IMG/VR virus record: IMGVR_UViG_3300009684_000054
Coordinates: 1 to 43,859 of that record
From: a virus
Direction: 5' to 3' (one strand)
Length of the DNA stretch: 43,859 nt
Position numbers and translations under genes: made by a program. The notes below the pieces were generated by a model. That model worked only from the letters and a program-made list of their open reading frames with translations. It had not been told where the DNA came from and ran no database searches. Positions 8,087-31,198 of this stretch are shown piece after piece; position 1 is the stretch's first letter; each line of letters starts with the position of its first letter.

Positions 8087-8722
8087 ATGACTATAGAATT
8101 AGAACTTAGAGATTGTGGATTTGAAAACGTTGAAAAACTTTACTGGATTAAAGGTGATACTGGCGCATGGTCAGGACCCCTTGATGATTGGAATGAAGGT
8201 ATTGAAGATTTCTTATCTCATGTGAGCAATTTTGGGACTGTTGTGCAAGCAGGCGGATGTTGCGGAATGTATCCTCGATTCTATAAGAATCACTTTAATA
8301 AAGTAATTACATTCGAACCGAACAAAGACAATTATATTTGTTTGTCGAAGAATTGTGAGAACACTGATATTGTTCATTACAATAAAGCATTAGGTTCAGA
8401 AATCACTACAGCAACGATGAGTTATGCTCGTCCGGGTGGCGATAATATGAATGTCGGAATGCATCGTGTAAACGAATCCGTTCCAGGAGAAATCGAAGTT
8501 ACGACTGTCGATAGTTTAAAACTTAAATCCCTCGATCTATTACATCTTGATCTTGAAGGATCTGAAGAAGATGCACTGATGGGTGCCATTCAAACTATTA
8601 CTCGCTATTGGCCTGTTATTATCACTGAACGAGCAAATGGTGACAGTTTGCTAAAACTTTTAGGATATGAATGCGTCAAGACAATGCGTATGGATAGCAT
8701 CTTCGTGAAAAAGTTTTGGTGA
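8087..8722 (+). CDS. FkbM-type SAM-dependent methyltransferase
   Basis: A 211-residue protein with the class I methyltransferase layout of the FkbM family. The SAM-binding strand-loop is VVQAGGCCGMYPRFY (residues of about 52-66), the acidic strand end that contacts the ribose is VITFEPNKDNYICL, and the family-typical LLHLDLEGSEEDALMGA block is followed by PVIITE. The first Gly-rich loop has QAGGCCG in place of the common DVGANxG. Members usually O-methylate sugars or small molecules; a phage copy could alter host surface glycans or a phage component, which is inference. It is the last gene before the tmRNA promoter. Confidence 0.82.
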   Translation: MTIELELRDCGFENVEKLYWIKGDTGAWSGPLDDWNEGIEDFLSHVSNFGTVVQAGGCCGMYPRFYKNHFNKVITFEPNKDNYICLSKNCENTDIVHYNKALGSEITTATMSYARPGGDNMNVGMHRVNESVPGEIEVTTVDSLKLKSLDLLHLDLEGSEEDALMGAIQTITRYWPVIITERANGDSLLKLLGYECVKTMRMDSIFVKKFW

Positions 8723-8738
8723 TACGACACAATAGTTA

Positions 8739-8767
8739 TTGACATTATGTGTATCAGATGATATACA
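8739..8767 (+). promoter_or_regulatory. Sigma70-type promoter of the tmRNA gene
   Basis: TTGACA at 8739-8744, a 17-bp spacer and TATACA at 8762-8767. A start about seven bases downstream would begin the transcript about 20 bases before the P2 strand of the acceptor piece, so the promoter is correctly placed for the permuted tmRNA precursor. Confidence 0.85.
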
Positions 8768-8835
8768 TATAGATGTAGTGATGATATTCACTGAACACGT
8801 TCTGGACTCGGGGGCGGTACCCGACGACTCCACCA

Positions 8836-8909
8836 CAGATACATTGGTCACCATAGTCGGAACAAATATGGTGTAATAGGTTTCTCCGAACACCCAATGT
8901 ATCTTTGCT
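8836..8909 (+). other. Intervening segment removed from the tmRNA precursor
   Basis: This 74-base stretch separates the CCA end from the mature 5' G. Its ends pair perfectly over 11 bp (8837-8847 with 8894-8904), and inside CACCAT (8849-8854) pairs with ATGGTG (8868-8873). In bacteria with permuted tmRNA this loop is excised by RNases to give two separate pieces; the structure here supports the same processing, which is inferred. Confidence 0.85.
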
Positions 8910-8993
8910 GGGGTCGAAATAGGATCGACAGGCGTACTAGGCAGGATGGAGCTACCCGGCGAAAGCTCGGTTAACGCAATAAAATCAAGAAAT

Positions 8994-9038
8994 GCAAATG
9001 AAAATTTCGCACCGGTAGCTTACGCTCTAGCAGCATAA
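8994..9038 (+). other. tmRNA tag reading frame, ANENFAPVAYALAA
   Basis: From resume codon GCA (8994-8996) the frame reads ANENFAPVAYALAA and stops at TAA 9036-9038. With the charged Ala the added tag is A-ANENFAPVAYALAA. The ANxNFA beginning fits alphaproteobacterial tags, and the C-terminal ALAA is the degron read by ClpXP/ClpAP. There is no start codon, as expected. Segments on both sides are complementary in three colinear blocks (CTAGG, TGGAGC and TACCC at 8937-8957 with GGGTA, GCTCCA and CCTAG at 9046-9064), which would close the loop around the tag. An alternative pairing GAGCT/AGCTC (8949-8953, 8964-8968) could be pseudoknot PK1. Confidence 0.9.
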
Positions 9039-9106
9039 TCTACCTGGGTATGGGCTCCACCTAGAAACAGAACGGGCCTTCACACGTAACATAATAGGAT
9101 GAAATG

Positions 9107-9469
9107 ATGAAAACTTTTCTTTTGACTGCTACTGCAGTTTTGGCACTTACTGCTGGTTCAGCTTTTGCAGTTGACCTAGGCAAGAGCAACTTTCAGTTTA
9201 ATAACGATCTAGTTGTTGAATACGATACAAAAGCTGAATTGTGGACTACAACTAATACTCCCGAACTTCGCTTTATTCCAGTTGAAGGTCTTTCAGTTTA
9301 TGTCAGCACTGACGTTGACTTGCAAGATGTAAACTTCGCAGGAGCAGAAGTTGGTGTCGAATACTACCCAGACATCGCAAAGCTAGATTTGGTCACTTAT
9401 GTGAAATCTACTTCTGATGCAGATTTCAACTTTGACGGCGCAATCGTTGGCGCTGAATTGAAGTTCTAA
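9107..9469 (+). CDS. Exported beta-rich protein, unknown function
   Basis: A 120-residue protein with a classical Sec signal peptide: MKT, a hydrophobic core (FLLTATAVLALTAGSAFA) and a likely cut after AFA. ATG 9104 is an alternative start. The mature part is acidic and alternates hydrophobic and polar residues (FQFNNDLVVEYDTKAELW, LRFIPVEGLSVYVSTDV, AEVGVEYYP, AIVGAELKF) as in the strands of a small outer-membrane barrel, ending in an aromatic (KF) as porin-like proteins do. It might be a periplasmic or outer-membrane protein that changes the host envelope. It begins about 32 bases after the tmRNA with only a weak ribosome binding site (AGGA), perhaps reading through from the same promoter. 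Confidence 0.7.
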   Translation: MKTFLLTATAVLALTAGSAFAVDLGKSNFQFNNDLVVEYDTKAELWTTTNTPELRFIPVEGLSVYVSTDVDLQDVNFAGAEVGVEYYPDIAKLDLVTYVKSTSDADFNFDGAIVGAELKF

Positions 9470-10094: not shown

Positions 10095-10682
10095 TTGCGT
10101 GTATATATCGGACCGTATCGGTATCGTTGGGTCAGCGCTATTCATCACAAATATATGAATTGGAAATACGATCATGATTGGTGCAATAGTCATAATGGGT
10201 TTGAGCGTTTTCTTGAAAAACTAGAATACTTTTTGCAAACTATTTACAATGCAACTATCAATCAAATCCTTGATGGTCGTAAAGATCAAAAGGTAAAAGT
10301 TCGCATTGACAATTATGATGTATGGGGTATGGATGATACCCTCGCATTGATCGTTGATCCTATGTTGAAGTTGCTTAAAGAGAATAAGCATGGATCGCCA
10401 TATGTTGACAATGCTGATGTTCCAGAAGAACTTCGCCATCCAGTCACTGATGATCCTGATCATGATGATACTATTCACAAGCGTTGGGATTGGGTTCTCA
10501 ATGAAATGATATGGGCGTTTGAACAAAAAGCACGTCCGGGTGGGTGGGAATCTGACTTCTATAACTTTGGTCCTAACGGCAATTACATTAGTTCAGATTC
10601 CGAAGGTGTGCAGAAGCATCAGAATCGTATGAGCAATGGTTTTCGACTATTTGGTCGCTATTACGAGGCATTGTGGGACTGA
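10095..10682 (+). CDS. Conserved phage protein of unknown function
   Basis: A 195-residue protein that begins with TTG at 10095, the base after the previous stop, with AAGGAT about nine bases upstream. The sequence has the conserved-looking blocks VKVRIDNYDVWGMDDTLALI, VDPMLKLLKENKHGSPYVDN, HKRWDWVLNEMIWAFEQKA and QNRMSNGFRLFGRYYEALWD. I recall similar proteins (with the VRIDNYDVW..DHTLA and HGSP..D blocks) in many T4-like and jumbo phages, where they are annotated as hypothetical. The His, Asp and Trp-rich conserved residues suggest an enzyme or a metal site, but nothing is proven. It ends in an overlap with gp33 (TGATG). Confidence 0.75.
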   Translation: MRVYIGPYRYRWVSAIHHKYMNWKYDHDWCNSHNGFERFLEKLEYFLQTIYNATINQILDGRKDQKVKVRIDNYDVWGMDDTLALIVDPMLKLLKENKHGSPYVDNADVPEELRHPVTDDPDHDDTIHKRWDWVLNEMIWAFEQKARPGGWESDFYNFGPNGNYISSDSEGVQKHQNRMSNGFRLFGRYYEALWD

Positions 10683-10912
10683 TGAAAGCACCTATGCAGT
10701 TTAACTCGACACTTGTTGAGGAAGTAGAATTCATTGTTAAAAATCGCAAGATTGAATACATGGATGCTGTTATTATGTGGTGTGAAATGAACAATCATGA
10801 AATTGAGTTTGCAGGTGATCTTATTCGTCGTCATGCAGTTCTTAAATCTAAAATTCAGTTAGAAGCAGAAAACCTCAACTTCATGCGAAAGAGTTCTCGG
10901 TTACCTATATGA
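10682..10912 (+). CDS. 33: gp33-like late promoter transcription accessory protein
   Basis: A 76-residue protein. ATG 10682 overlaps the upstream stop (TGATG); a GTG at 10673 in frame is possible. The family is recognised from the helical layout and motifs: EEVEFIVKNRKIEYMDAVIM, EMNNHEIEFAGDLIRRHAVLKSKI and a C-terminal ENLNFMRKSSRLPI, which ends in the short hydrophobic patch that contacts the RNA polymerase flap in T4. gp33 links the sliding-clamp-activated late transcription machinery to host RNA polymerase. Placement 33-59-32, as in T4, supports the call. Its 3' end overlaps gp59 by four bases (ATGA). Confidence 0.85.
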   Translation: MKAPMQFNSTLVEEVEFIVKNRKIEYMDAVIMWCEMNNHEIEFAGDLIRRHAVLKSKIQLEAENLNFMRKSSRLPI

Positions 10913-11493
10913 GTACAGCATACGATGTTTTCAAAGATTACATTGCGCTGAAGAATCATTTCACAACCAAATCATACGACTACTTCAAATATCAAGGTAA
11001 ATCTCGATCAATTACACCCGAGAAATACAATCAAAGAAAAGACAAAGTTTTCTTCATGAAGTTGGCAAAACATAGGGATCCTAAACATTTCCTCGTTGCC
11101 AACTTCATTGAAGGAGATACATGGATTGGTTCGCTTGCATATAATGAACAAGCGCAAAACACATATACCAATTGGTTAAAGCGAACACAATCGCTTACCT
11201 ATATTTTCCAGAACGAAATAGAACAACTTAACGATGAGTTCAATTCGAATTTCATCGTTGAAGAAGGGCAACACCCAAACGCTTTAAAACTGTATCTGCG
11301 AAAAGAAATATCAATCGAAACACTCGTCATTCTTATTGATGTTGTTAGATGTTTTTCGCATTGGCAAAGGCATATGAGTGAAGACATTGTATGGAAAGAG
11401 TTGTCTCATAAATTAATGAAATACAAACCTTTCCTACAATATGATAGGGCAAAATGCAAAAAGATTTTGCTTGATCATTTCAAAACTGCATGA
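10909..11493 (+). CDS. 59: gp59-like helicase loader
   Basis: A 194-residue protein, near the length of T4 gp59 (217). It begins TAYDVFKDYIALKNHFTTKS, followed by YDYFKYQGKS, EKYNQRKDKVFFMKLAKH and GDTWIGSLAYNEQAQ, which parallels the T4 YxLYLxIKxHx...YDxIKYN...RRDKYFFQKL...AWIGD pattern. gp59 is known to load gp41 helicase onto gp32-covered forks and junctions. Translation is coupled to gp33 by an ATGA overlap, and it is followed by gp32, so the T4 replication-recombination cassette order is preserved. Confidence 0.88.
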   Translation: MSTAYDVFKDYIALKNHFTTKSYDYFKYQGKSRSITPEKYNQRKDKVFFMKLAKHRDPKHFLVANFIEGDTWIGSLAYNEQAQNTYTNWLKRTQSLTYIFQNEIEQLNDEFNSNFIVEEGQHPNALKLYLRKEISIETLVILIDVVRCFSHWQRHMSEDIVWKELSHKLMKYKPFLQYDRAKCKKILLDHFKTA

Positions 11494-11570
11494 TACAATG
11501 CATATATAATGTATCGTTTATGACGCACAAACCGGTGTTATGATCATTAATGCGACATCTTCGATACATT
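11492..11570 (+). promoter_or_regulatory. gp32 leader with inverted repeats
   Basis: GATACA and TGTATC (11492-11497 and 11510-11515) form a short palindrome over a TATAAT (11505-11510). AATGTATCG (11508-11516) is exactly complementary to CGATACATT (11562-11570), 45 bases later. T4 gp32 represses its own translation by binding a leader structure; a comparable role for this leader is inferred. The -35 match to TATAAT is poor, so I do not call a sigma70 promoter. Confidence 0.5.
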
Positions 11571-11618
11571 AAATACAAAACATACAAACATTTTATACAA
11601 ATTATACGGAGAATACAT

Positions 11619-12554
11619 ATGGCACTTTCATTTGCTGAAATGAAGAAATCTCGTCAAAACACACTTGAGTCATTGACCAAGGAATTGACAAAACTCCAGA
11701 CGCCCAATGGCGGCGCAGACGACGATGCTCGTTTCTGGAAACCAACTGTTGACAAAGCAGGCAACGGTATGGCAACTATTCGCTTCCTACCTCCAATCGC
11801 TGGTGAAGATATGCCTTTTGTGCGTATGTTCTCACACGGGTTTAAAGGCCCGACCGGTTTGTGGTATATCGAGAACTCATTGACTACTCTCGGTAAGAAT
11901 GATCCTGTTTCAGAATATAACTCTGAATTGTGGAATTCGACCACTGATGATGCATCACCCGCTCGTAAGCAAGTGCGTGATCAGAAGCGTAAGCTGAACT
12001 TCATCTCGAACATTTATGTCGTGAAGGACAGTGCAAATCCTGCAAACGAAGGCAAGGTATTCTTGTATCAGTATGGCAAGAAAATCTTCGACAAAGTCAA
12101 CGAAGCAGTTAAGCCTCCTTCACAATTTGAAGATGAAAAACCTATGAACCCATTTAATTTGTGGGAAGGTGCAAACTTCAAATTGAAGATTCGTCAAGTT
12201 GAAGGTTATCGTAATTATGACAAAAGTGAATTTGAAGCTCCATCACCTTTGAGCAATGATGACGATGTTCTCGAAACCATTTGGAAGAGTGAATATCCAT
12301 TGCAAGAATTGGTCGGTCCTGATAAGTTCAAGTCGTATGACGAACTTAAGGCAAAGCTGGTTCGTGTATTGGGTCTTGATGGAAATCCTATGGTATCGCG
12401 TAACAGAACAGCAGAGAACAACTCGTATGATACAAATGTAGAATCTGCACCTAGTCAGCGAACTGCGACCGCTCCTAAAATTGAATCTTCTTCATTCGCG
12501 GATGACGATGATGACAATATGGAGTTTTTCAAGAATCTTGCTGATGGAGACTAA
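11619..12554 (+). CDS. 32: gp32-like single-stranded DNA-binding protein
   Basis: A 311-residue protein. ATG 11619 (MALSFAEMKKSRQNTLESL) follows ACGGAG; an upstream in-frame ATG at 11550 lacks a good site. The basic N-terminal region needed for cooperativity, the OB-fold core (FWKPTVDKAGNGMATIRFLP; FSHGFKGPTGLWYIENS; NEGKVFLYQYGKKIFDKV; LKIRQVEGYRNYDKSEF) and the acidic tail (FADDDDDNMEFFKNLADGD) are all present. It coats ssDNA in replication and recombination; the acidic tail binds partners such as gp59. The core lacks the zinc-binding Cys residues of T4 gp32: WYIENS replaces WYIENC, and DPVSEYN stands where CPVC lies. A terminator follows at 12574. Confidence 0.94.
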   Translation: MALSFAEMKKSRQNTLESLTKELTKLQTPNGGADDDARFWKPTVDKAGNGMATIRFLPPIAGEDMPFVRMFSHGFKGPTGLWYIENSLTTLGKNDPVSEYNSELWNSTTDDASPARKQVRDQKRKLNFISNIYVVKDSANPANEGKVFLYQYGKKIFDKVNEAVKPPSQFEDEKPMNPFNLWEGANFKLKIRQVEGYRNYDKSEFEAPSPLSNDDDVLETIWKSEYPLQELVGPDKFKSYDELKAKLVRVLGLDGNPMVSRNRTAENNSYDTNVESAPSQRTATAPKIESSSFADDDDDNMEFFKNLADGD

Positions 12555-18791: not shown

Positions 18792-19751
18792 ATGGTCACT
18801 ATCACATCAGGATCACTTAGTTCTGGCTCATCTATTGCGGCAGGATATTCAACGCCGCAAGGGGTATCAGTAACTCGTGCAGACATTGCAGGACCTTCAA
18901 CTATGTATAAGTTGAAAAACATTGAAAGTAATCAGCAAGCAAGTAATCTCACATTCCCGGCTGACATAGGTCCGCATTACATGACGATTGCGATTGCTGA
19001 ATCTACAAGAACAAACAGAACAGATTCAATAGGTGGTGGAACTAGATTTGGCGGGATGAAATTTAAAGGACAATCTTACATTCGTTTGCCGTTACCCGAA
19101 CATATTAAAGACATTAATGAAGTAGATTATACACCTGAAGGTGTTGTTAGTGCTAGCTCAACCGCGGGTGCTCTTATGGGAACTATCGCACCTCGAGGAA
19201 CTTTTTTGAACACACTCGTCGATACCGCATCTCAACAAGGTGTCGGGGCTGAATTGAGAGCAAGATCAGGTACTGCCCCGAATCAAATGTTGACCATATT
19301 GTTGAAGGGTCCTAAATATAAAGATCATTCATTTTCGTGGAAATTGTATCCTAGAAATGCAAAAGAATCTGCTGCTGTAAGATCTATAATTCAAACATTA
19401 AAATCTAGTTCAAGACCCGGATTAAGTCAAAATGGATGGTTTTTCACATTCCCTCGTATTTTTAAATTATCTTTCATCACAGGAAATAAAGAAAATAATG
19501 AAAAGGGAAGTGGATATTTGTTTGAATTTAAACCATCCGTGTTGCAATCTGTTGTAGTTAATTATACTCCATCAGGAGCACCTGCATTGTATTCAGGAAC
19601 TTCAGCACCTGATGGTGTCGAATTAACTCTAAATTTTAAGGAATTAGAATACTGGTTGGGTGAAGATAGACCTTCTGAATGGGATTTAGGAGGAGAATTG
19701 CTAGGATCATTCGGATTAGATAATAATACATTACGTGGCACAGATCGTTAA
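18792..19751 (+). CDS. 48: gp48-like baseplate tail tube cap
   Basis: A 319-residue protein (T4 gp48 is 364), with AAGGAA six bases before ATG 18792. Beta-rich, with TRFGGMKFKGQSYIRLPLPE and HIKDINEVDYTPEGVVSAS in the first half. The second half has HSFSWKLYPRNAKESAAVRSI, as gp48 has its TFTWDLTPRST-type segment, then FRIFKLSF-like strands and ELTLNFKELEYWL at the end. gp48 caps the tail tube onto the baseplate hub. It is the first gene of the plus-strand baseplate unit, opposite to gp4, and precedes gp53. Confidence 0.82.
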   Translation: MVTITSGSLSSGSSIAAGYSTPQGVSVTRADIAGPSTMYKLKNIESNQQASNLTFPADIGPHYMTIAIAESTRTNRTDSIGGGTRFGGMKFKGQSYIRLPLPEHIKDINEVDYTPEGVVSASSTAGALMGTIAPRGTFLNTLVDTASQQGVGAELRARSGTAPNQMLTILLKGPKYKDHSFSWKLYPRNAKESAAVRSIIQTLKSSSRPGLSQNGWFFTFPRIFKLSFITGNKENNEKGSGYLFEFKPSVLQSVVVNYTPSGAPALYSGTSAPDGVELTLNFKELEYWLGEDRPSEWDLGGELLGSFGLDNNTLRGTDR

Positions 19752-19773
19752 AATTAATAAGGTAAGAATTTAA

Positions 19774-20634
19774 ATGCCAGAACCATTTTTCAGTAAATTC
19801 CCAGTTATAACATATGCAAATACACGATGCATTGACATAACTAAACGAGTCATTATTGACTCTGGATTGAGAAGAAATCCTATTGTGTATGATCAACATG
19901 AATTGAAACACGCAACAAGAGCAGACGTAATTGCTGAAAATTACTATGAGGATCCTTCCATGGAGTGGATGCTTTTCCTTGTGAATGGCATAATTGACCC
20001 ATATTATGGATGGAATTTATCTTCATTTGATTTCGATGAACATTTGATAAAAAAATATGGGTCGATTGAATTGTCCAACCAAAAAATAGCATATTACAAA
20101 ATAAACACAGAAGATGAAACTGAATTTAGCGTTGATTATTATGATAGTTATATAACTGAAAATCTTAAAAAATACTACTCACCTAATTTCAATGCAGATC
20201 TAAATATTAGTAGTTACAGCAGAAGAAAAGATAATATAATCGTAAACACAAATAAAGTTTATCAATTTGAAATATCACTAGCTAATTCAACATCAGGGTT
20301 TACAATCGGAGAATTAGTTACTGCTAGTCCAGGTGCAGCAAATGGTGAAGTAGTTTTTGCAAATTCCACATTCGTAAAAGTTAAAAATGTTACAGGTAAT
20401 TTTAACGCAAACATTACACGGGTTAAAGGTAGAAATTCAATAGCAAATGCTAGTGTTATATCAAAAACTTTGTTAAGCACAAATATACCAGATAATGAAG
20501 CAGTTTACTGGACATCAGTGTCTTATTATGATTATGAAAATGACATAAATGAAAAACACAAATCTATAAAACTTATGAATCCTGCATATGCTAGCGAAAC
20601 TGCTTTTAACATGAGAAAAATATTAAAGTCATGA
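19774..20634 (+). CDS. 53: gp53-like baseplate wedge protein
   Basis: A 286-residue protein (T4 gp53 is 196). The N-terminal half is typical gp53: EPFFSKFPVITYANTRCIDI, then ADVIAENYYEDPSMEWMLFL and NGIIDPYYGWNLSSFDFDEH. The middle (about residues 165-235) is an extra beta domain (TSGFTIGELVTASPGAANGE, VVFANSTFVKVKNVTGNF) of the type repeated in gp7, gp8 and the large fibre-type proteins here. gp53 is known to join wedges together and stabilise the gp6 ring. It ends in an ATGA overlap with the gp27-like gene (20631-20634). Confidence 0.9.
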   Translation: MPEPFFSKFPVITYANTRCIDITKRVIIDSGLRRNPIVYDQHELKHATRADVIAENYYEDPSMEWMLFLVNGIIDPYYGWNLSSFDFDEHLIKKYGSIELSNQKIAYYKINTEDETEFSVDYYDSYITENLKKYYSPNFNADLNISSYSRRKDNIIVNTNKVYQFEISLANSTSGFTIGELVTASPGAANGEVVFANSTFVKVKNVTGNFNANITRVKGRNSIANASVISKTLLSTNIPDNEAVYWTSVSYYDYENDINEKHKSIKLMNPAYASETAFNMRKILKS

Positions 20635-21881
20635 GTTTACCTAATTATACACAAGCAATCATAAAAAAATGTTCGATAGATAATATCGACGTTTCATTGC
20701 ATGTCAGACAATTGTATGTTTCATCTTCGATATTGACACCTTATATAACAGCAAAAATATCTATAGCTGATGTTAGTTCATTGCAGGACGCATTATATGA
20801 ACCAGGCAAACCTGTATCTATTGTTTATACTGGCGGTGATAGCTCTATTATCCGTGAATATAATTTAGTTACTATGGGAAGCATGGGCGGAACTAAAGAT
20901 CAAAATAATCGTGCAGGTAAAACTGAAATTATTGCAATAAGCAGATGTTATTTTGATATGCAAAATGAGCATACAAGCCATCATCAAAACATTCCGACTT
21001 CAGAAGTATTCAGAAAATTACATAACGAATTAGTTCCTAGTTCAAAGATAGATATAACAAAAACTAAAGGTTTGATCTCAGATATTGAACCTTTTCATTT
21101 GCGTGGAATTAGATTGGGTAGAGCCATAAACATGGTTAGAAATCGTATGACAGATGATAAGTATAAATCTGCTTCATATGTATATTATGTTGATCAAAAT
21201 TCTGATTATCATTGCGTCCCGCTAGAACAATTATTCGATAAAGCAGCAGGACCTAAATATATTCAAAGAGTTGCAGGGATTAGTTTTCTTAAAGAACATG
21301 ACACATTAGCATACAATATCATTTCTATGAAAAGAGGATCGACTAAATCGGGATATGGTAGCGACGATGCTTCTGCGTATCAATCAACACAAAGACAACG
21401 AGGCGGCGCAACCAATGAAGGTTGGGATTGGGCTAGCGGTTCATATACTGCACCTATCGCAAAATCGTATAAACTATCTTCTGTTAAAACAAAAGGCTCA
21501 CCGGGTGATGAAATTCTCACAACTCAGGGTGCTGACGCAGCGGGAACAGTAAATCACAATTTCATGATTGACTCTAATCAAAAAAGTTCTGCAGATTTTG
21601 AAGCGGATATTGCAAAGAAAAATATATTGAAATCTTTGATCATGCAAGGTTCATCATTAATTAATGTTCCCCTCGAGGGTGGATTGAACTCGTATGTCGG
21701 GAAGGGATGCTATCTTGATATACCTTCTGATATAGGAGATGGAGACAGCAATAAATCTTTGTATGGCGGCCAACACTTAGTGATCGCTCAAGGAGAATAT
21801 ATATTTCAAGATCAAAATGGCATGATGGGTATTGCTGCAATACAAACATCAAGTGGCGGTAAACAAGGGAGTTTAGGTTAA
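20631..21881 (+). CDS. 27: gp27-like baseplate hub protein
   Basis: A 416-residue protein (T4 gp27 is 391). The N-terminal domain (NYTQAIIKKCSIDNIDVS, VRQLYVSSSILTPYITAKIS), the charge-rich SRCYFDMQNEHTSHHQNIP and GIRLGRAINMVRNRMTDD segments and the later SYVYYVDQNSDYHCVPLE resemble the tube-fold and intermediate domains of gp27-type hub proteins. gp27 trimerises at the centre of the baseplate and binds gp5. The gene directly precedes the OB-fold part of gp5 by one base between stop and start, as expected for partners. The C-terminal third carries a Gln/Ser/Gly-rich region (QRGGATNEGWDWASGSY). Confidence 0.83.
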   Translation: MSLPNYTQAIIKKCSIDNIDVSLHVRQLYVSSSILTPYITAKISIADVSSLQDALYEPGKPVSIVYTGGDSSIIREYNLVTMGSMGGTKDQNNRAGKTEIIAISRCYFDMQNEHTSHHQNIPTSEVFRKLHNELVPSSKIDITKTKGLISDIEPFHLRGIRLGRAINMVRNRMTDDKYKSASYVYYVDQNSDYHCVPLEQLFDKAAGPKYIQRVAGISFLKEHDTLAYNIISMKRGSTKSGYGSDDASAYQSTQRQRGGATNEGWDWASGSYTAPIAKSYKLSSVKTKGSPGDEILTTQGADAAGTVNHNFMIDSNQKSSADFEADIAKKNILKSLIMQGSSLINVPLEGGLNSYVGKGCYLDIPSDIGDGDSNKSLYGGQHLVIAQGEYIFQDQNGMMGIAAIQTSSGGKQGSLG

Positions 21882-21882
21882 T

Positions 21883-22194
21883 ATGGCATCTTATGGTCGT
21901 GGTCGTGGGTTCAATTATTTTATAGGTGAAGTTGTTAGTGTCAATTCTCCATATCAGGATGGCAGCGTAAAGGTTCGCGCATACGGCACTGAGGATGATA
22001 AAGCTAAAATCCCAGATGATGCGCTGAGATGGTACAAAGTATTGATGCCGGTGACACATGCACAAATACCCGGACACGGCGGCATCCACGGGCTGCTGAA
22101 GGGCTCTGTGGTGATGTGTATATACCTTGACGACTTCGAACAAATTCCTATGGTGATCGGAACATTAACTTCATCAGGCAAACCTAAAAAGTAA
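21883..22194 (+). CDS. gp5-like OB-fold hub protein (separate from spike and lysozyme)
   Basis: A 103-residue protein with the OB-fold of the gp5 N-terminus: FIGEVVSVNSPYQDGSVKVR, AYGTEDDKAKIPDDALRWYK, VLMPVTHAQIPGHGGIHGLL and KGSVVMCIYLDDFEQIPMVI, GTLTSSGKP. In T4 gp5 this domain binds gp27 and is followed by lysozyme and beta-helix in one 575-residue chain. Here it stands alone; the beta-helix is a separate gene at 22816 and the lysozyme domain is in the minus-strand gene 14224-16164. The start follows the gp27 stop by one base, so both are translated from the same message. Confidence 0.85.
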   Translation: MASYGRGRGFNYFIGEVVSVNSPYQDGSVKVRAYGTEDDKAKIPDDALRWYKVLMPVTHAQIPGHGGIHGLLKGSVVMCIYLDDFEQIPMVIGTLTSSGKPKK

Positions 22195-22204
22195 AGAGAA
22201 AAAA

Positions 22205-22804
22205 ATGGCAATTACAATTGATAACTTTTCAATCGGAATACCTGCATCAGCAAGACCAGCAGAGGATCCTAGACTTATAGATGGATTAAAAGGACTTGAA
22301 ACCCTTCACGGGACCTTACAGAATAGCATTGATAACATTTACGATTTATCATATAAACTGACAGGTGGCGAAATACTAAAGAATTTTGATCTTCCTAGCA
22401 TAGGTGCTCAAATTTTTGATGGTAATAGCGATGCAGCAAAATTCATCAAACAATTCGATCCTAATAATAAAAGCGGAGCAGTCGGTTTCGCATTAGGATT
22501 AGTAGATAAGATTAATTCTGAATTAGACGAAGGTAAATTGTTGAAGGACTTGATGGGTCCTCAAGTTGCATGTCTCGTCACTTCATTCGTTGACATAAGC
22601 AATATTATCCCTACTCTATCATTGAATTTTCCTGATATTGTTGGCATGTTAAAAAATAAACTACAAGAAATTCAAAATGCTATGACCTCAGCAATCGACG
22701 GTTTATTAGCACCTGTTAGAAACCTGATAACATCTTTAACAGATGCTTTACAGAAAGTGAATGATTTAATTGGAAAAATTGCTGCTTGTGCTAGTGCAAC
22801 TTAA
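22205..22804 (+). CDS. Baseplate-region protein, unknown function
   Basis: A 199-residue protein between the OB-fold and spike genes. It is helical with long hydrophobic repeats (LKGLETLHGTLQNSIDNIYD; GAVGFALGLVDKINSELDEG; NKLQEIQNAMTSAIDGLLAP; NLITSLTDALQKVNDLIGKI). No signal peptide or clear membrane helix is seen, and no family is recognised. Its position inside the hub cluster suggests a virion structural or assembly role, possibly an adapter between OB-fold and spike, which is inference. Confidence 0.65.
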   Translation: MAITIDNFSIGIPASARPAEDPRLIDGLKGLETLHGTLQNSIDNIYDLSYKLTGGEILKNFDLPSIGAQIFDGNSDAAKFIKQFDPNNKSGAVGFALGLVDKINSELDEGKLLKDLMGPQVACLVTSFVDISNIIPTLSLNFPDIVGMLKNKLQEIQNAMTSAIDGLLAPVRNLITSLTDALQKVNDLIGKIAACASAT

Positions 22805-22815
22805 AGGAATATACA

Positions 22816-23583
22816 ATGGGTAAAATTGCAGACGATCTCGAAAGCATAAAAAAATCAACTGAGGATGCTATAAAATTAGCTAGAACAGTTTTCTCAGGAA
22901 GAACTCCTGATGCGGGTGACAACAATAAGGGTCAATATCCTTTGCGAAACGTCATGGAGTATATCGGTGGGCATAGACAGGTATTTGATAGCACACCTGG
23001 TGCTAGAGTTGTTGAACAAGCTCACGGTTCAGGCACGTTTCAACAGTGGGCTGAAGACGGGTCAGAAATTCGTGTTGTTGTCAGCAATAAGTATGAACAC
23101 CTCAAGGCAGGATATACTTTAACTGTCAATCAAAACGGCGATATTAAGATTGATGGGCATTGCAGAGTTTCTGTTGGCGGTGGTGCCCATGTTGAGGTTG
23201 CAGGTGATGTGTCATTAGTATCAACTGGAACCATTACCCAATACGCAGCAAAAGACATTAACCTTGTCGCAGGCGGTAAAATCAATATTCTTGGCAATAA
23301 GAGTTTGAATTTGACAACTGATGGAACACATACAGTCCGTGTAGGTAAAGATCACAAATCAACTGTTCATGGCAAATCTGATTACATAGTTGACGGCAAT
23401 CACACATCAGCTATTCAAGGAAATTCTGATAATTTAGTTAAAGGCAACATAGGTTTAAGAGTTGATGGTAATGCTACTACTAGAACTACAGGTAATGAAT
23501 CTGCAGTTATTGGGGGCAAAAAAGATGTTTCTTCAAGCGGCACTATGACATTTATTGCACCAAAAATAGATTTAAACCCATAA
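22816..23583 (+). CDS. gp5 C-terminal-type baseplate spike (beta-helix)
   Basis: A 255-residue protein. After an N-terminal helical part and a GHRQVFDSTPGARVVEQAHG segment that resembles the VgrG/gp5-type start (GSGTFQQWAEDGSEIRVV), the last 130 residues are a short-strand repeat. Runs such as GAHVEVAGDVSLVSTGTI, INLVAGGKINILGNKSLN and VRVGKDHKSTVHGKSDYI, then IGGKKDVSSSGTMTFIAPK follow a triple-stranded beta-helix pattern. This forms the membrane-piercing needle below the hub. Its separation from the OB-fold gene is unlike T4, where both are in gp5. Confidence 0.85.
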   Translation: MGKIADDLESIKKSTEDAIKLARTVFSGRTPDAGDNNKGQYPLRNVMEYIGGHRQVFDSTPGARVVEQAHGSGTFQQWAEDGSEIRVVVSNKYEHLKAGYTLTVNQNGDIKIDGHCRVSVGGGAHVEVAGDVSLVSTGTITQYAAKDINLVAGGKINILGNKSLNLTTDGTHTVRVGKDHKSTVHGKSDYIVDGNHTSAIQGNSDNLVKGNIGLRVDGNATTRTTGNESAVIGGKKDVSSSGTMTFIAPKIDLNP

Positions 23584-23592
23584 GGAAAAACA

Positions 23593-24012
23593 ATGTCAAG
23601 AATAGACACAAATGTAACTACAAGTAAAAAAGAAAAACGTTACAGTGATCTTGCAATGGGATTTACTATGTCACCCGTGACTGGTAATATTGCTATGGTT
23701 TATGATGAACAATCAGTCAAACAAGCAATAAAAACATTGATCTTGACTAAACCTGGTGAGCGATTCTATAATAAAGATTATGGGACAAGTGTTCATGATA
23801 TGTTATTTGATATGATTGATCCTATCACTGCTGAAAATATAAAAATGAGTATTGAAGAAGCTATTAAAAATTATGAACCTCGGGTTGAAACGCTCGAGGT
23901 TCGAGTAGTAGGTGATGAAGTAAATCTACAGTATGTAATCAATATATTTTTCAGAATAATAAATATACCTGAGGTCCAAACAATGGACATAATCCTAAAA
24001 AGAGTTCGTTGA
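23593..24012 (+). CDS. 25: gp25-like baseplate wedge protein
   Basis: A 139-residue protein, close to T4 gp25 (132). The signature is typical: YSDLAMGFTMSPVTGNIAMV, DEQSVKQAIKTLILTKPGER, FYNKDYGTSVHDMLFDMIDP and EAIKNYEPRVETLEVRVVGD. gp25 links wedge and sheath and is conserved in all contractile tails (it has a lysozyme-like fold without activity). It follows the spike by ten bases and precedes gp6 by four. Confidence 0.95.
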   Translation: MSRIDTNVTTSKKEKRYSDLAMGFTMSPVTGNIAMVYDEQSVKQAIKTLILTKPGERFYNKDYGTSVHDMLFDMIDPITAENIKMSIEEAIKNYEPRVETLEVRVVGDEVNLQYVINIFFRIINIPEVQTMDIILKRVR

Positions 24013-24015
24013 AGC

Positions 24016-25854
24016 ATGTCAAATTCATCTATTAATCTAGTAAACTTAGATTTTGCAACCTTAAAATCTAGCCTAAAAACATATATGTCAGCGCAAAATA
24101 TATTCAAAGATTATAACTTTGATGGATCTGCAATGGATGCTTTGCTTGATGTTCTTGCATACAACACATACAAAAATGCTTTCTATCTAAACATGGTAGG
24201 CGCAGAAGGTTTCCTAGATTCGGCACAGATGAAAGGTTCTATATTTTCACATGCTAAAGAACTGAATTATCTACCCAGATCTGCGAGAAGTTCTTCTGCA
24301 AACGTCACGATAAATTTTACAGCAACAAGTGCAAGCCAACCTTACGTTATTCGTAAAGGTGAAACCTTTAGCACAATTATAAACCAAACCTCATATGTGT
24401 TTAGTGTCGCTGATGATCAAATATTGACTTCAGCAAATAACACATATACTTCTACCTTCAATATTTATGAAGGTTCATATGTGACAGATAATTATATAGT
24501 TCTTGATAGTGACATCTCACAGACATTTATTATTAGTAACGTTGATGTTGACACAGATTCCATCTCTGTTTTAGTCTATGAACACGGTTCTACCACACCT
24601 TCTGTTTACGCCAGAGCAACTTCACTATTAGGATTAAATTCACAATCAAAAGTTTATTTTATTCAAGCAAATTCTACTGGCAAATATGAGATAATTTTCG
24701 GTGATGATGTTATCGGAAAAAGACCTTTGCCCGGAAGTACAGTCATTATTGATTATCGTGTTACTGCAGGTCTTGCTGGTAATGGTGGAAAGAATTTCAT
24801 AATAAATTTTGATCCTACTGGAAGTGGCGAATTAACTTCATCAGTTGCCACAACCACTAACAAATATTCACCTGAAGCAGCCGGTCAATATTCTGCAAAT
24901 GGTGATGACGCAGAAAGCATTGAGTCAGTAAGATATTATGCACCTCGTCATTTCCAGACACAAGAACGTGCTATTACTACGAATGATTATGAAACAATTC
25001 TTAAGATGCAATATCCTGAAATCGGCGCTATATCTGTTTATGGTGGAGAAGATGCAACACCACCTAGATATGGTAAAGTTTTTATTGCAATTGATATTAA
25101 AAATGTTGATGGGTTACCCACATCCAAGAAAAACGAATATTACAATTTCTTGAAATCTCGTATGCCTCTTTCGATTGATCCTATATTCATTCAACCTGAA
25201 ATGACATATGTTCAAGTCAATTCTCGTGTAAAATATAACGTTAACGAAACCACTAGAACTTCAAATAATATCAAGGCAGGAATATCGTTGGCTATTTCTG
25301 AATTTGCATCAAAATATCTAAATAATTTCAAAGCAGCTCTTTATTATTCAAAATTGACATCTGCAATTGATGCTGTTGATAATAGCATTGTATCAAATCA
25401 AACAAAACTATACGTCTATAAGAAATTAAGTCTGTCAACTGACATACCTCAAAATTTAGTTATAGATTTCAACATGCCATTGAAGAAAACTTACTATGTT
25501 TTAAACACCTTAATATCAAATAAATCAGTAACTCAAGATGACGTTGAGATGGCACATTCACTTCATTCTTCATTATTTATCTATAATGGAAGTATTTGCG
25601 AATTGGAAGATAATGGTGCTGGTGTGGTTCGTATAATCAGAAAAACTGATCATGTCATTGTCAAGAATATTGGAACTATCAATTATGAAACTGGTAGAGT
25701 ACTGCTGAATAATTTTTCAGTAGATTCATATGATGGCAATTACTTCAACCTATACATCACCCCACGAGAATCAGATGTAGTGATTAAGAAAAATGAAATT
25801 CTGTATATTGAATCTTCTGGAATTAATGTAACTGTAGAACCTGTGAGAATCTAA
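24016..25854 (+). CDS. 6: gp6-like baseplate wedge protein
   Basis: A 612-residue protein (T4 gp6 is 660). The N-terminus SINLVNLDFATLKSSLKTYM, then NFDGSAMDALLDVLAYNTYK, NAFYLNMVGAEGFLDSAQMK and SHAKELNYLPRSARSSSANV is the conserved gp6/gpJ core. Further conserved parts are FGDDVIGKRPLPGSTVIIDY and YAPRHFQTQERAITTNDYET. gp6 forms the continuous wedge ring of the baseplate. Its TAA overlaps the ATG of gp7 (TAATG, 25852-25856). Confidence 0.95.
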   Translation: MSNSSINLVNLDFATLKSSLKTYMSAQNIFKDYNFDGSAMDALLDVLAYNTYKNAFYLNMVGAEGFLDSAQMKGSIFSHAKELNYLPRSARSSSANVTINFTATSASQPYVIRKGETFSTIINQTSYVFSVADDQILTSANNTYTSTFNIYEGSYVTDNYIVLDSDISQTFIISNVDVDTDSISVLVYEHGSTTPSVYARATSLLGLNSQSKVYFIQANSTGKYEIIFGDDVIGKRPLPGSTVIIDYRVTAGLAGNGGKNFIINFDPTGSGELTSSVATTTNKYSPEAAGQYSANGDDAESIESVRYYAPRHFQTQERAITTNDYETILKMQYPEIGAISVYGGEDATPPRYGKVFIAIDIKNVDGLPTSKKNEYYNFLKSRMPLSIDPIFIQPEMTYVQVNSRVKYNVNETTRTSNNIKAGISLAISEFASKYLNNFKAALYYSKLTSAIDAVDNSIVSNQTKLYVYKKLSLSTDIPQNLVIDFNMPLKKTYYVLNTLISNKSVTQDDVEMAHSLHSSLFIYNGSICELEDNGAGVVRIIRKTDHVIVKNIGTINYETGRVLLNNFSVDSYDGNYFNLYITPRESDVVIKKNEILYIESSGINVTVEPVRI

Positions 25855-28841
25855 TGTCGAATATTGAAAAGAATATTTCTCAGTTTATCAAAAATCAATT
25901 CCCTGTTATTTACAGGGAAGAAGGTGATTTGTTTGTTGAATTTGCGACTAAATATTATGAATGGATGGAACAATCGAACAATGTTTTATATTATTCAAGA
26001 AATTTTTTAGAAAATAGAGATATTGATGAGACTGTAGATGATTTTATCATAAGATTCAAAAATAAGTATCTAAATGATATTCAAATTGACACTGTTTCTA
26101 GTTCAAGAAATCTAGTAAAACATTCATTAGATTTATATCGTGCAAAGGGAACTGAGCGTGCTATTGACACGTTTTTTCGTGCTGTATATGGCGCACCTGC
26201 TGAAATTTATTACCCAGGTAAAGACGTTTTTCGCCTATCAGATGGAAGATGGGTTAAGCCTATCTACCTCGAAGTCAATGAAAGTGAACACAATGTTTTT
26301 TTTGCTGGCAAACAGATTGTAGGTTTGAATAGTGGAGCTACAGCTTTCGTTGAACGATACATCAAACGCAAAATTAAATCAAAATATATTCACATATTTT
26401 ACATATCTGCAATTAACGGAGAATTTGTAACAGGTGAATCTTTGACGTTGCCCGATCAGACGACTTTGAAAAACATACCTAAAGTTATTGGGTCAGTGAC
26501 AACACTTGATGTTATTGCAGGAAGCAGCGGGTTTGCAATTGGCGATATTGTCAATATATCTTCTGAAAACGGCAATCAAGGTAAAGCAAGAGTTACTGCA
26601 ATCGCAGACGTTACAGGACTTGTGACATTTAATTTAACAGATAGTGGATGGGGTTATACTTCAAATGCTCAAATCCTAGTTTCTGATAAAGTTTTAACTC
26701 TTAGCAATGTTGTTGCAGGTCCTGCAACAACAGATTTGCCTTTTAAATTATTTGAGACTATCAAACAACCTTTAGCTAATATCGCCCTTAGAAATGCAAA
26801 TAATACTATTTCAATTGCTAATGGTGATTATCTTTACACATATTATTCAAATAATAAATTAGCAGGAACAGGTCGAGTTTTATCATATACTTCAAATGGT
26901 TCTACAAACGGTGAAGTTTTTGTTGCAGAAGTTTATAACACACTCGGACCAGTAGTTCAGCCATCTGCAAACTTAGCAGGAACTGTTTCTGTAACTTTGA
27001 ATGATACACCTGTTACGGGATATAGCACTATAACTGCTAACTCAACAATCATTGATGGCACAGGAACTGATTTTGTAAGCAATATTAGACTAGGTCAGAT
27101 TATTAAATTATTTGCGTATAATAGCAATAACGTATTATTGAGTATTCAAGACAAAAAAGTTTCAAGTATAGCTAATACTACTCGTCTTACTTTGACAACA
27201 AATTCGACAACAACTTCTTCTAAAGTCATAATTCAATCTATAGGTTCATTGGGTATAACTGGATCAGGAACTTCTTTTAATACTCAATTTGTTTACGGTG
27301 ACACAATTGCAATTTTTGGTAATTCTTCTAGTTATGTTTTGAGAACTGTCAATGCTGTTACAAACGCAACATATTTAACTATTCAGGAGAATATTGATTT
27401 TAGTAACACTTCATGCAATTATGCTAATGTGTCATACGACTATAAAGTATATACTGGAGGCAACACATTAAGTGCGAATATTTCAACAAGAACTGATAAA
27501 TCTGTTACAGCTAATATTATGGGTGAGTCTGCAAATTTGACGTTATATGTCACGGGCATCAATGGGCAATACACAAACAATCAAATCGTGTATCAACTGA
27601 ATGCAAATAATGTTGAAATTGCTAATGCAATTGTAGTTTCTTCTCAAATCACCGTAGGTTCGAATGTTCTTTATAGTGTTCAGAATTCTAACGGCGTATT
27701 TGTTGTAGGCGGTCAACCTATTAATTCAAGATATGCTAATGGAAAAAATACAGGATTTATTGGCACTTTATCTAGAGTTGATATGAGTATAGGTATTACT
27801 GATATTGCAGGTGCAGGTTCGTTTACTGATACCACATACAACTATGTCTATGGTGTTGACTCTTCGTCAAATGCTTCTATATCTAGAATAAGTTCAGGTA
27901 CTTTAGCTGATTTTAGTATAACTAATACAATGACATATTCTGAAAGTATCATAATATCAACAGATAGAATAACTAAATATGCAAATGTAAGATTAAATTC
28001 TACTGTATTCGGGTTTCCTGCTAACGTAACTGCAAATGTAATTTCACATAACTTGATAGATATATTACCGCCTTCTACATATGATATAATCATTGGCGGA
28101 ATATCATCTTTGACAGGCATCAACCCAGGTAAGAATTATGACGTAGCACCATTTGTAACATTATATGAACCTGAAGTTGCTATTTTCGGTTTAAGAGATC
28201 TTGAGTTGCAGATAACAAATCTTGTTGGCGGATATTTCTCACCTGGCGAATTAGTTTATCAAACTTCCGGTGCTAGAGGCATCGTGAAGGAAGCAAATTC
28301 TACTAATGTTAGTGTAAAGAGATTAAACTTTGCAAATAGTTTCTTACTCACGGAAAATATCACTGGCTCTTTGACAGGATCTTATGCAAATGTAATTTCA
28401 TTCTTTACTTCACCTGGTGCAACTCCTATAGGTTTGAATGCTTTAGTTTCTGCTAATGTGCAAACTTCTTCAGGTTCTGTTAGCAAGTTAGAAGTATATG
28501 ATTCCGGTTTCGGATATTTACCTGATGAAGTTACAAAATTTGTTTCAAGTGATGGAACAAGAACAGGTACTACAAAAATAAATTTAGGCAAAAAAGGAAT
28601 GTCTGAAGGTTTCTATAAGAATAAAAAAGGTCAATTGAGTGCGTCTAAATACATTTATGACGGCGAATATTATCAAGATTTTTCTTATGAAATTATCACT
28701 GAAATTCATGTCGATAAATATGCTGATATGCTTAAAAAGGTATTACACGTTGCAGGGACTAAATTCTTCTCATCAACAATTTTATCTGACGTAGCAAATA
28801 ATTCAACGAACATTATAACTGTAATTACGAAAGAATCATAA
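25854..28841 (+). CDS. 7: gp7-like baseplate wedge protein
   Basis: A 995-residue protein, near T4 gp7 (1032). The N-terminal segment (NIEKNISQFIKNQFPVIYRE, VEFATKYYEWMEQSNNVLYY, RNLVKHSLDLYRAKGTERAI, FFRAVYGAPAEIYYPGKDVF) is the conserved wedge part. From about residue 140 on it is a chain of beta repeats: GSGTSFNTQFVYGDTIAIFG and INPGKNYDVAPFVTLYEPE, and VGGYFSPGELVYQTSGARGI. It ends with DKYADMLKKVLHVAGTKFFS. Comparable repeats occur in gp53, gp8 and the proteins at 31211 and 36120, so this is a modular protein. It overlaps gp6 and gp8 by one base. Confidence 0.87.
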   Translation: MSNIEKNISQFIKNQFPVIYREEGDLFVEFATKYYEWMEQSNNVLYYSRNFLENRDIDETVDDFIIRFKNKYLNDIQIDTVSSSRNLVKHSLDLYRAKGTERAIDTFFRAVYGAPAEIYYPGKDVFRLSDGRWVKPIYLEVNESEHNVFFAGKQIVGLNSGATAFVERYIKRKIKSKYIHIFYISAINGEFVTGESLTLPDQTTLKNIPKVIGSVTTLDVIAGSSGFAIGDIVNISSENGNQGKARVTAIADVTGLVTFNLTDSGWGYTSNAQILVSDKVLTLSNVVAGPATTDLPFKLFETIKQPLANIALRNANNTISIANGDYLYTYYSNNKLAGTGRVLSYTSNGSTNGEVFVAEVYNTLGPVVQPSANLAGTVSVTLNDTPVTGYSTITANSTIIDGTGTDFVSNIRLGQIIKLFAYNSNNVLLSIQDKKVSSIANTTRLTLTTNSTTTSSKVIIQSIGSLGITGSGTSFNTQFVYGDTIAIFGNSSSYVLRTVNAVTNATYLTIQENIDFSNTSCNYANVSYDYKVYTGGNTLSANISTRTDKSVTANIMGESANLTLYVTGINGQYTNNQIVYQLNANNVEIANAIVVSSQITVGSNVLYSVQNSNGVFVVGGQPINSRYANGKNTGFIGTLSRVDMSIGITDIAGAGSFTDTTYNYVYGVDSSSNASISRISSGTLADFSITNTMTYSESIIISTDRITKYANVRLNSTVFGFPANVTANVISHNLIDILPPSTYDIIIGGISSLTGINPGKNYDVAPFVTLYEPEVAIFGLRDLELQITNLVGGYFSPGELVYQTSGARGIVKEANSTNVSVKRLNFANSFLLTENITGSLTGSYANVISFFTSPGATPIGLNALVSANVQTSSGSVSKLEVYDSGFGYLPDEVTKFVSSDGTRTGTTKINLGKKGMSEGFYKNKKGQLSASKYIYDGEYYQDFSYEIITEIHVDKYADMLKKVLHVAGTKFFSSTILSDVANNSTNIITVITKES

Positions 28842-31198
28842 TGGCTCAATCTAAAAAACTCATAACTAAAGAAACTCGTCTACATAATGCTAGACAGTTA
28901 TTAGAATCGGTCAATGAGCCTTCAAATACTGCCTATTACACATTCATAGGTAATCATCTAGATTATGCAAATACTTCGAACATACCACAGCCATATGATT
29001 CAGTATCTGAAGTACATATTGATGCCTATCGGAATATGATTTATGGTAAAAGATTAAATTCCGGTGATATGTCTTTGATGATCAGAAGAAATGATTACGT
29101 CACAAACACTGTATATACAATGTATGATGACAATTTGGGTGAATCCAATCTCGCATTATTTGACAGTAATTATTATGCTATTGTAAACGCTGATGCCTTT
29201 TATCATGTATTCAAATGTTTAGATAATAACAGAAACTCACCGTCAACAATCCAACCTGAATTTTCCGAAATTGATGTGGCAGATGAATCATATCAAACTT
29301 CTGATGGATATACATGGAAATATATGTATACTGTCGATGATACTTTTAAAAGAAAATTTGCAACTAGTGAATATTTTCCAGTCGTTGCAAACGCTCAAGT
29401 TTCATCTGCTGCAAAAACAGGTATTATCGACGTTATCAAAGTAGAGACTGCAGGTTCAGGTTATGACAACTACTGTAATGGTGTTTTCCGAGTAGATGAT
29501 TTGAGAATCGGAGGTAATGTCAGAACATATTCATTGAACAGTTCAGTTGGTGCAAATACAACAAGTAGATTTTATACAGGGTGCTATATTTACATTTCAT
29601 CCGGCACTGGCGCAGGACAATATGCTAAAATTACGGATTATGTCGTAAATTCTACAGTTAAAGCAATAACGATTGACCGAGCTTTTAATGTAAAACCATT
29701 AGCTAGTTCTGCGTATCAGATCTCACCCGGTGTAGTAATTTTAGGTGATGGCACCGAGACTGTTACTGCCGAAGCAAGGGCAATCGTAAATTCATACGGC
29801 AATACAATTCAAAGAATTGAAATGTTGAATTTAGGTGAAAACTATAATTATGCTACTGCTACAACTGTAACAGATTCAGTTGTTGGTGTCAGTAAAACTG
29901 CAACACTAAGACCAATTTATTCTCCCCCGGGCGGTCATGGTTATGATGCTGCAAGAGAATTGGGTGCAACCAGATTATGTGTCAGCACTAAATTTTCTAA
30001 TACTGATATAGGTATTCCTCTAAAGAATGATTACAGAACAATCGGAATTTTAAGAGATCCAGTATTTGCGAATGTAACTTTTAACATTACGGGTGCTGTA
30101 GGTTCTTTTGTTGCAGGTGAAAGCATATACAAAGTTAATGGCGTAAAAGTAAGTTCAAATGTTAGTATTTCAGCAACAGATTCTGTAGCTATAAGCAACA
30201 CCGGAAATAGTGATTTCCTAAATCAATTTTCTGTTGGGGAATATGTTTATTTAAAAACAGAATCAGGATACCAATTATCTGTAGTAAATTCAATTGTAAA
30301 TTCAACTTACATGACCTTTGCGTCAAATAATTATTACACTAGTAATCAGAATGCCGATATCTACAAAACAAATATCGGTGCTAATTTAACATCAGTTGAT
30401 TTAACATATTCGACTATATTAACTGGCAATGTTTCTGTTAACACGACTTCTGCAAATATGAATGGAACCGGAACTAGTTTTACTACAGAACTTAAAGCAA
30501 ATAGTAGTTTAGTTTTTATCTATAATGCATCTGCTGGCGGCGGAACTATTCGCAAAGTCAAAACAGTTGTTAGCGACACAGTGGCTATACTAGACTCAAA
30601 TTGCAGTTTTGCTAATACGACTGCAAAAGCACAATTATTAAGTTACACTGTAAATTCAATAGTTTCACGAGAAATTGGTGCATCACAAGGATTGTTAACA
30701 TCAGTTGCAGCAGGAACCTTTGATGCGTCTGGTGTTTCAGGTATATTTAAAACTGGTGATTCTGTAATAGGAGCAAAATCTGGGGCATTTGCAACTATAA
30801 GTTCTATTATGAGAAGCGGGGTCTACAAAGACTTTAGCACTTTTATTCAGATGTATAAATATAACGCAATTCCCTTTTCGGGAAGTTTTGTCGAAGACGA
30901 AAAAGTGTTTCAAAGCACTACAGGTTCTAGTAGACAGCAATTTGCTAATGCATATTTACATTCAGTCGTTGATTCTAACGTAAACAAAGATTATTACGTT
31001 ACAAATCAAATTGGTTCTTTTCAAACTGGATCCCCGATAATAGGAACTTCTAACACCACACCGAGGGCAGATGTTGTTAATAAATATTCTCCGGAATTGG
31101 TTTTTGGTAGCGGTAAAGTCATGTATTTAGAAAAAGTAGATGCTATATCAAGAAGTAATACTGCAGCAGAAACAATCAAATTTATATTCGAATTTTAA
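28841..31198 (+). CDS. 8: gp8-like baseplate wedge protein, enlarged
   Basis: A 785-residue protein, more than twice T4 gp8 (334). Conserved ends are visible: at the start DYANTSNIPQPYDSVSEVHI, MIYGKRLNSGDMSLMIRRND, YHVFKCLDNNRNSPSTIQPE and SDGYTWKYMYTVDDTFKRKF, and at the end GKVMYLEKVDAISRSNTAAE, TIKFIFEF, which matches the gp8 ending (MIYMENR...EINILFTF). The excess lies in the middle: ETAGSGYDNYCNGVFRVDDL, the SFVAGESIYK repeat and NMNGTGTSFTTELKANSSLV units, which are repeat domains shared with its neighbours. gp8 joins the wedge to the short tail fibres. Confidence 0.87.
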   Translation: MAQSKKLITKETRLHNARQLLESVNEPSNTAYYTFIGNHLDYANTSNIPQPYDSVSEVHIDAYRNMIYGKRLNSGDMSLMIRRNDYVTNTVYTMYDDNLGESNLALFDSNYYAIVNADAFYHVFKCLDNNRNSPSTIQPEFSEIDVADESYQTSDGYTWKYMYTVDDTFKRKFATSEYFPVVANAQVSSAAKTGIIDVIKVETAGSGYDNYCNGVFRVDDLRIGGNVRTYSLNSSVGANTTSRFYTGCYIYISSGTGAGQYAKITDYVVNSTVKAITIDRAFNVKPLASSAYQISPGVVILGDGTETVTAEARAIVNSYGNTIQRIEMLNLGENYNYATATTVTDSVVGVSKTATLRPIYSPPGGHGYDAARELGATRLCVSTKFSNTDIGIPLKNDYRTIGILRDPVFANVTFNITGAVGSFVAGESIYKVNGVKVSSNVSISATDSVAISNTGNSDFLNQFSVGEYVYLKTESGYQLSVVNSIVNSTYMTFASNNYYTSNQNADIYKTNIGANLTSVDLTYSTILTGNVSVNTTSANMNGTGTSFTTELKANSSLVFIYNASAGGGTIRKVKTVVSDTVAILDSNCSFANTTAKAQLLSYTVNSIVSREIGASQGLLTSVAAGTFDASGVSGIFKTGDSVIGAKSGAFATISSIMRSGVYKDFSTFIQMYKYNAIPFSGSFVEDEKVFQSTTGSSRQQFANAYLHSVVDSNVNKDYYVTNQIGSFQTGSPIIGTSNTTPRADVVNKYSPELVFGSGKVMYLEKVDAISRSNTAAETIKFIFEF

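Follow-up and report, generated by a model that had tools for sequence, protein, structure and literature searches.

The 43,859-base window analysed here, which is the entire IMG/VR virus record IMGVR_UViG_3300009684_000054, carries on its plus strand a circularly permuted transfer-messenger RNA (tmRNA, ssrA) gene, in which the acceptor half is encoded before the coding half, the CCA lying at 8833-8835 and the coding half starting at 8910. An earlier note, made from the letters alone, had read the locus in this way and proposed a search with the Rfam alpha_tmRNA covariance model (RF01849), which with cmscan matched 8735-9084 (+) over the full model (positions 1-355) at 115.8 bits (gathering cut-off 50; E 4.9e-31). 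The tmRNA_permuted model RF04321 matched 8774-9038 at 109.2 bits (gathering cut-off 47), and these two, both on the tmRNA gene, were the only cmscan matches over the gathering cut-off in the window. ARAGORN likewise made a single call in the window, for a permuted tmRNA that encodes the tag ANENFAPVAYALAA and its stop at 8994-9038. The two models and ARAGORN thus agree on a complete permuted tmRNA at the place first proposed, and the fold of the whole span is more stable than those of 200 dinucleotide shuffles (z -4.3).

According to the RF01849 and RF04321 alignments, the acceptor piece (8774-8835) comprises the 5' strand of the helix shared with the coding half, the T arm, the 3' strand of the acceptor stem and the terminal ACCA. 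The T stem-loop (TCGGG-GGCGGTA-CCCGA, 8808-8824 in the Rfam alignment) has its stem at 8808-8812/8820-8824 and its loop at 8813-8819. The suspicion that the loop GGCGGTA is usual in this class proved right: it occurs in 42 of the 73 bacterial copies parsed, agrees with the Rfam consensus, and is present in 116 of 117 viral copies, most of these having been recruited with a pattern that fixes this very loop. The acceptor 3' strand CGACTCC (8825-8831) is followed by A73 (8832) and the encoded CCA, and pairs at all seven positions with GGGGTCG (8910-8916), including the G3-U pair that had been predicted. This stem is fully paired in 126 of 126 loci parsed, with a fifth pair that varies between U-A, G-C, C-G and A-U; G3-U is equally present in all 126, the U side being fixed by the recruiting pattern in most of them and the G side free. 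The coding piece (8910-9084) continues from GGGGTCG through the mRNA-like part into the 3' region, and its putative 3' end is that of the RF01849 match, whereas ARAGORN extends the piece to 9129, overlapping the next open reading frame (ORF) at 9104. Its tag frame is intact, with an alanine-rich hydrophobic end and a terminal ALAA that reads as a normal degron. Upstream, the sequence offers a putative promoter (8739-8767) with TTGACA at 8739-8744, a 17-nt spacer and TATACA at 8762-8767. It had been described as near-consensus, which fits the perfect -35 element but not the poor -10 element (4/6), and a consensus promoter scan did not list it because the -10 element lacks T at position 6; the upstream consensus UAUAUU of RF01849 aligns at about the place of the putative -10.

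Between the CCA and the RNase P-type start at 8910 lies an intervening spacer of 74 nt (8836-8909), presumably removed on maturation. The 11-bp helix claimed for it is present: its 5' arm AGATACATTGG (8837-8847) starts one base after the CCA and pairs with the 3' arm CCAATGTATCT (8894-8904), a stretch that the Rfam model draws unpaired. Covariation shows this helix to be conserved in the viral copies in one fixed register, in which the partner of base i after the CCA is base i+4, counted back from the first G of the coding half. Across nine positions of 57 non-redundant viral spacers, each 45 bases or longer, 94.7% of cells pair in this register, compared with a mean of 68.7% (maximum 74.5% in 1000) when 3' ends were swapped between sequences; neighbouring registers reach 31-62%, and each of the nine positions shows 3-6 standard pair types with changes on both sides. 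Since the register is fixed, NCCA and the 5' cut site would sit in a symmetric 4x4 internal loop. On the strand facing ACCA, 46 of 58 viral copies have the four bases TGAT, and the window has TGCT. RNase P contacts the RCCA end, and we therefore infer that the helix serves maturation of the precursor. Spacers have a median length of 74 nt in viral and 32 nt in bacterial genes, and at least eight consecutive pairs in register were found in 51 of 58 viral against 7 of 22 bacterial spacers of at least 40 nt (Fisher p 2e-6), and in 0.1% of shuffled spacers. The helix is thus enriched in phages and not unique to them; the stronger idea of a phage-specific helix was abandoned, as some bacterial genes carry a similar one. 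As a separate observation, one bacterial genome (locus G099:C5:288354-289012, L209) holds, in addition to its normal permuted tmRNA (133 bits), a second, weaker one (84 bits) with a phage-like 80-nt spacer and 11-bp helix, possibly a prophage copy.

The intact tag frame, the compensatory changes and the retained alanine determinant argue for a working tmRNA. Judged by sequence and comparison, all core parts are intact and under selection, and the locus is probably a working ssrA gene of the phage, of the permuted type known from alphaproteobacteria. Several observations weigh against this. When the two pieces were folded together, as had been suggested, the minimum-energy cofold retained the acceptor stem but did not show the T arm that was expected. 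The RF01849 score of 115.8 bits compares with 247-307 for three bacterial genes, and a gap of about 43 RF01849 model positions follows the tag stop, so the pseudoknot region appears reduced or divergent, the models used holding no pseudoknots. Furthermore, no match to an SmpB gene was found in the window contig or in six phage records, and a phage tmRNA would therefore need the SmpB of the host. Divergence from the Rfam consensus would suit a non-functional relic, yet many phages keep the gene, its tag frame is open and both the acceptor stem and the spacer helix show compensatory changes, which makes a relic extremely improbable. Another possibility is a modified tmRNA that interferes with or retargets host trans-translation, either as an inhibitor or by way of a tag that changes proteolysis. 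For the tmRNA of DS6A, which lacks a coding sequence, interference with the tmRNA of the host was reported (PMC11915505), and both the phage tags, which differ from the sampled host tags, and the diverged 3' domain of the window tmRNA would suit such a role. However, the intact tag frame makes interference of the DS6A kind less likely, its ALAA end and the retained acceptor stem with G3-U also speak against a modified role, and we consider this explanation unlikely. For some viral permuted tmRNAs (L030, L051 and L057; L038 and L040) the predicted tag is very long (29 aa, as in ANDNALSNVTFVDFSAPVTAVNEDFALAA), and one and the same tag is seen in separate contigs.

Ribosome rescue during infection is most likely the role of the gene, and that the phage supplies its own rescue, as the earlier note proposed, is plausible on present sequence evidence. 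In our model, a single precursor would be transcribed from the upstream promoter, and the spacer helix would continue the acceptor stem beyond the 4x4 internal loop, in which ACCA and the 5' cut site are exposed. The spacer would be excised by host RNase P and 3' nucleases, with two RNAs left that are paired to each other. The alanyl-tRNA synthetase of the host would charge the RNA via G3-U, host SmpB would load the charged tmRNA onto stalled ribosomes, and the ANENFAPVAYALAA tag would direct the unfinished peptide to host proteases. The benefit for the phage might be that ribosomes are kept cycling while messages are cleaved. The case shows T4-like phages maintaining, under selection, an intact RNA of the ribosome-rescue type.

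The mature parts of 73 viral and 67 bacterial genes were placed in trees by a quick method that supports few inner branches, the bacterial sample (about 70 genes) including 30 top scorers out of 142 genomes. In the tree of the whole mature RNA, the window groups among 60 viral rows (SH-aLRT 96), and with the coding half alone, which drops the part used for recruiting, among 66 viral rows (SH-aLRT 97), in neither case with a bacterial row. The viral/bacterial label requires 5 changes on the whole-RNA tree, against 46.8 in shuffles, and 5-6 across both trees. The phage Melnitz, which was not recruited by the pattern, falls inside the viral clade, whereas bacterial genes recruited by an exact acceptor half group with bacteria on the whole-RNA tree; in addition, the best bacterial neighbour of the window gene scores well under the best viral ones. 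The trees thereby place the window tmRNA in a phage lineage of tmRNAs. On the whole-RNA tree, the phages DSS3P8, RcXuper and Phosso lie outside the window clade and RcRudolph inside it; since the first three fall elsewhere, phages probably acquired the gene more than once. A more far-reaching proposal, which we put forward tentatively and consider somewhat less probable than its negation, is that of a phage-only permuted-tmRNA lineage long carried by T4-like and other phages, whose hallmark would be a longer spacer that has UGAU ahead of the 5' cut in most copies and is closed by a covarying helix, set directly against ACCA in an invariant 4x4 loop. If true, the lineage and its hallmark would imply that maturation is specialised, perhaps also quicker or less dependent on the host, and that tagging may have a role peculiar to phages.

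The surroundings of the gene are those of a T4-like phage, in agreement with what had been assumed of the carrier. Downstream of the tmRNA, on the plus strand, lie genes for a T4 gene 33-like late-transcription regulator (10673-10912; phrog_254, E 8.1e-14), a T4 gene 59-like helicase loader (10909-11493; Pfam T4_Gp59_N and T4_Gp59_C; phrog_269, E 9.7e-53) and a T4 gene 32-like single-stranded DNA-binding protein (11550-12554; Pfam gp32, E 6.1e-44; phrog_224, E 2.9e-113), together spanning 10673-12554, and T4-type baseplate proteins are encoded at 18792-31198. In 16 other viral loci, the tmRNA is likewise followed on its own strand by one or more homologues of gp33, gp59 or gp32 of the window, two or three being usual; in Melnitz, the coding half starts 580 bases from gp33 and 746 bases from gp59. 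This recurrence shows the tmRNA to be a long-term resident of a T4 core-gene cluster in this group. It also bears on the view that the gene was recently captured from a host, by imprecise excision or by integration at a tmRNA site, and kept by accident. tmRNA genes are indeed common integration sites with partial copies in prophages (PMC9004378), and the exact 32-nt acceptor half recurs in nine bacterial genomes, of Rhodobacterales and Caulobacterales type. Nevertheless, the conserved place upstream of T4 genes 33-59-32, the small number of label changes (5-6 against about 47 in shuffles), the purely viral composition of the window clade and the lower score of the best bacterial neighbour are all at odds with such a recent event, and in GTDB no genome matched a degenerate tag pattern for ANENFAPVAYALAA / ANDNFAPVAYALAA, making recent capture very unlikely. 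As a source of the gene, the nine genomes were themselves rejected, since their own genes group with bacteria in the tree. Immediately upstream of the tmRNA is an FkbM-type methyltransferase gene (8087-8722; Pfam PF05050, E 1.6e-8; phrog_8156, E 5.8e-31), and directly 3' of it lies the ORF at 9104-9469 (121 aa), whose start reads as a signal peptide followed by alternating beta-like segments. Pfam and PHROG searches with this ORF returned no match; a homologue, 34% identical, stands directly 3' of the tmRNA in another locus (L124).

That the type of tmRNA points to the class of the host, as the earlier note held, turned out to be a weak argument, because Melnitz carries an alpha-type tmRNA although its host is a gammaproteobacterium (PMC9004378), and because the window gene lies in a phage-only clade and not beside any sampled bacterial gene. 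The closest baseplate relatives among isolates are Caulobacter phage Cr30, DLP_6, HTVC008M, Melnitz and the Sinorhizobium phages phiN3 and phiM12, and since these point mainly to alphaproteobacteria and the nine genomes sharing the acceptor half belong to that class, the host is probably alphaproteobacterial.

Phage-borne permuted tmRNAs are an already known kind, and the rarity that the earlier description implied is mistaken: a two-piece ssrA beside a transcription coactivator was published for Melnitz in 2022, along with 53 apparent two-piece tmRNAs among 18,146 phage genomes (PMC9004378), and viral contigs commonly carry such genes. The 32-base acceptor-half pattern matches at least 120 IMG/VR contigs, some of which may be bacterial. 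With Rfam models, we found complete permuted tmRNAs, unannotated in the records, in DSS3P8, vB_RpoS-V10, RcXuper, RcRudolph and Phosso, and further ones in HTVC008M and DLP_6; many related copies in viral contigs and isolate genomes stand unannotated. None was detected at E 0.001 in Cr30, phiN3, phiM12 or cyanophage P-SSM2, so the gene is not universal in T4-like alphaproteobacterial phages. What we appear to add to the published work are two modest extensions, namely the viral-only clade and the covarying fixed-register spacer helix, which together make the maturation of two-piece tmRNAs and the gain to a lytic phage testable.

Compared with the alphaproteobacterial chromosomal tmRNA (RF01849; Caulobacter and Roseovarius type), the window gene shares the gene order, the G3-U acceptor stem, the T loop, the encoded CCA and a tag ending in AA, but it has a longer spacer, a helix that in viral copies usually stands at the CCA, a lower model score and a separate branch. 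Its counterpart in Melnitz (EXVC044M), also a T4-like phage, is an alpha-type permuted tmRNA (RF01849, 106.7 bits) upstream of genes 33 and 59, with the spacer helix in the same register and a place in the same viral clade. It differs, apart from its gammaproteobacterial host, in the T loop (GGCAGTA), in the tag (ANDNYVPVDYALAA) and in a glutamine riboswitch just downstream, none being found in the window at the gathering cut-off. Pelagibacter phage HTVC008M, T4-like and with an alphaproteobacterial host, has a copy (RF01849, 83.8 bits) whose spacer helix, judged by eye, keeps the same register, while the tag (ANFNEYALAA) differs and the gene is more diverged. The T4-like Stenotrophomonas phage DLP_6, whose host is a gammaproteobacterium, carries a beta-type permuted tmRNA (RF01850, 103.7 bits; L216:1455-1728). 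The complete permuted tmRNAs of DSS3P8, vB_RpoS-V10, RcXuper, RcRudolph and Phosso, phages of Rhodobacterales and Sinorhizobium, lie in neighbourhoods that, unlike that of the window, are not T4-like in the stretches seen. In the Roseobacter phages DSS3P8 (L002:4351-4784, 150.7 bits) and vB_RpoS-V10 (L004:2351-2784, 151.4 bits), an unannotated GOLLD RNA (cut-off 150) lies about 170 bases upstream of the permuted tmRNA, in a tRNA-rich stretch.
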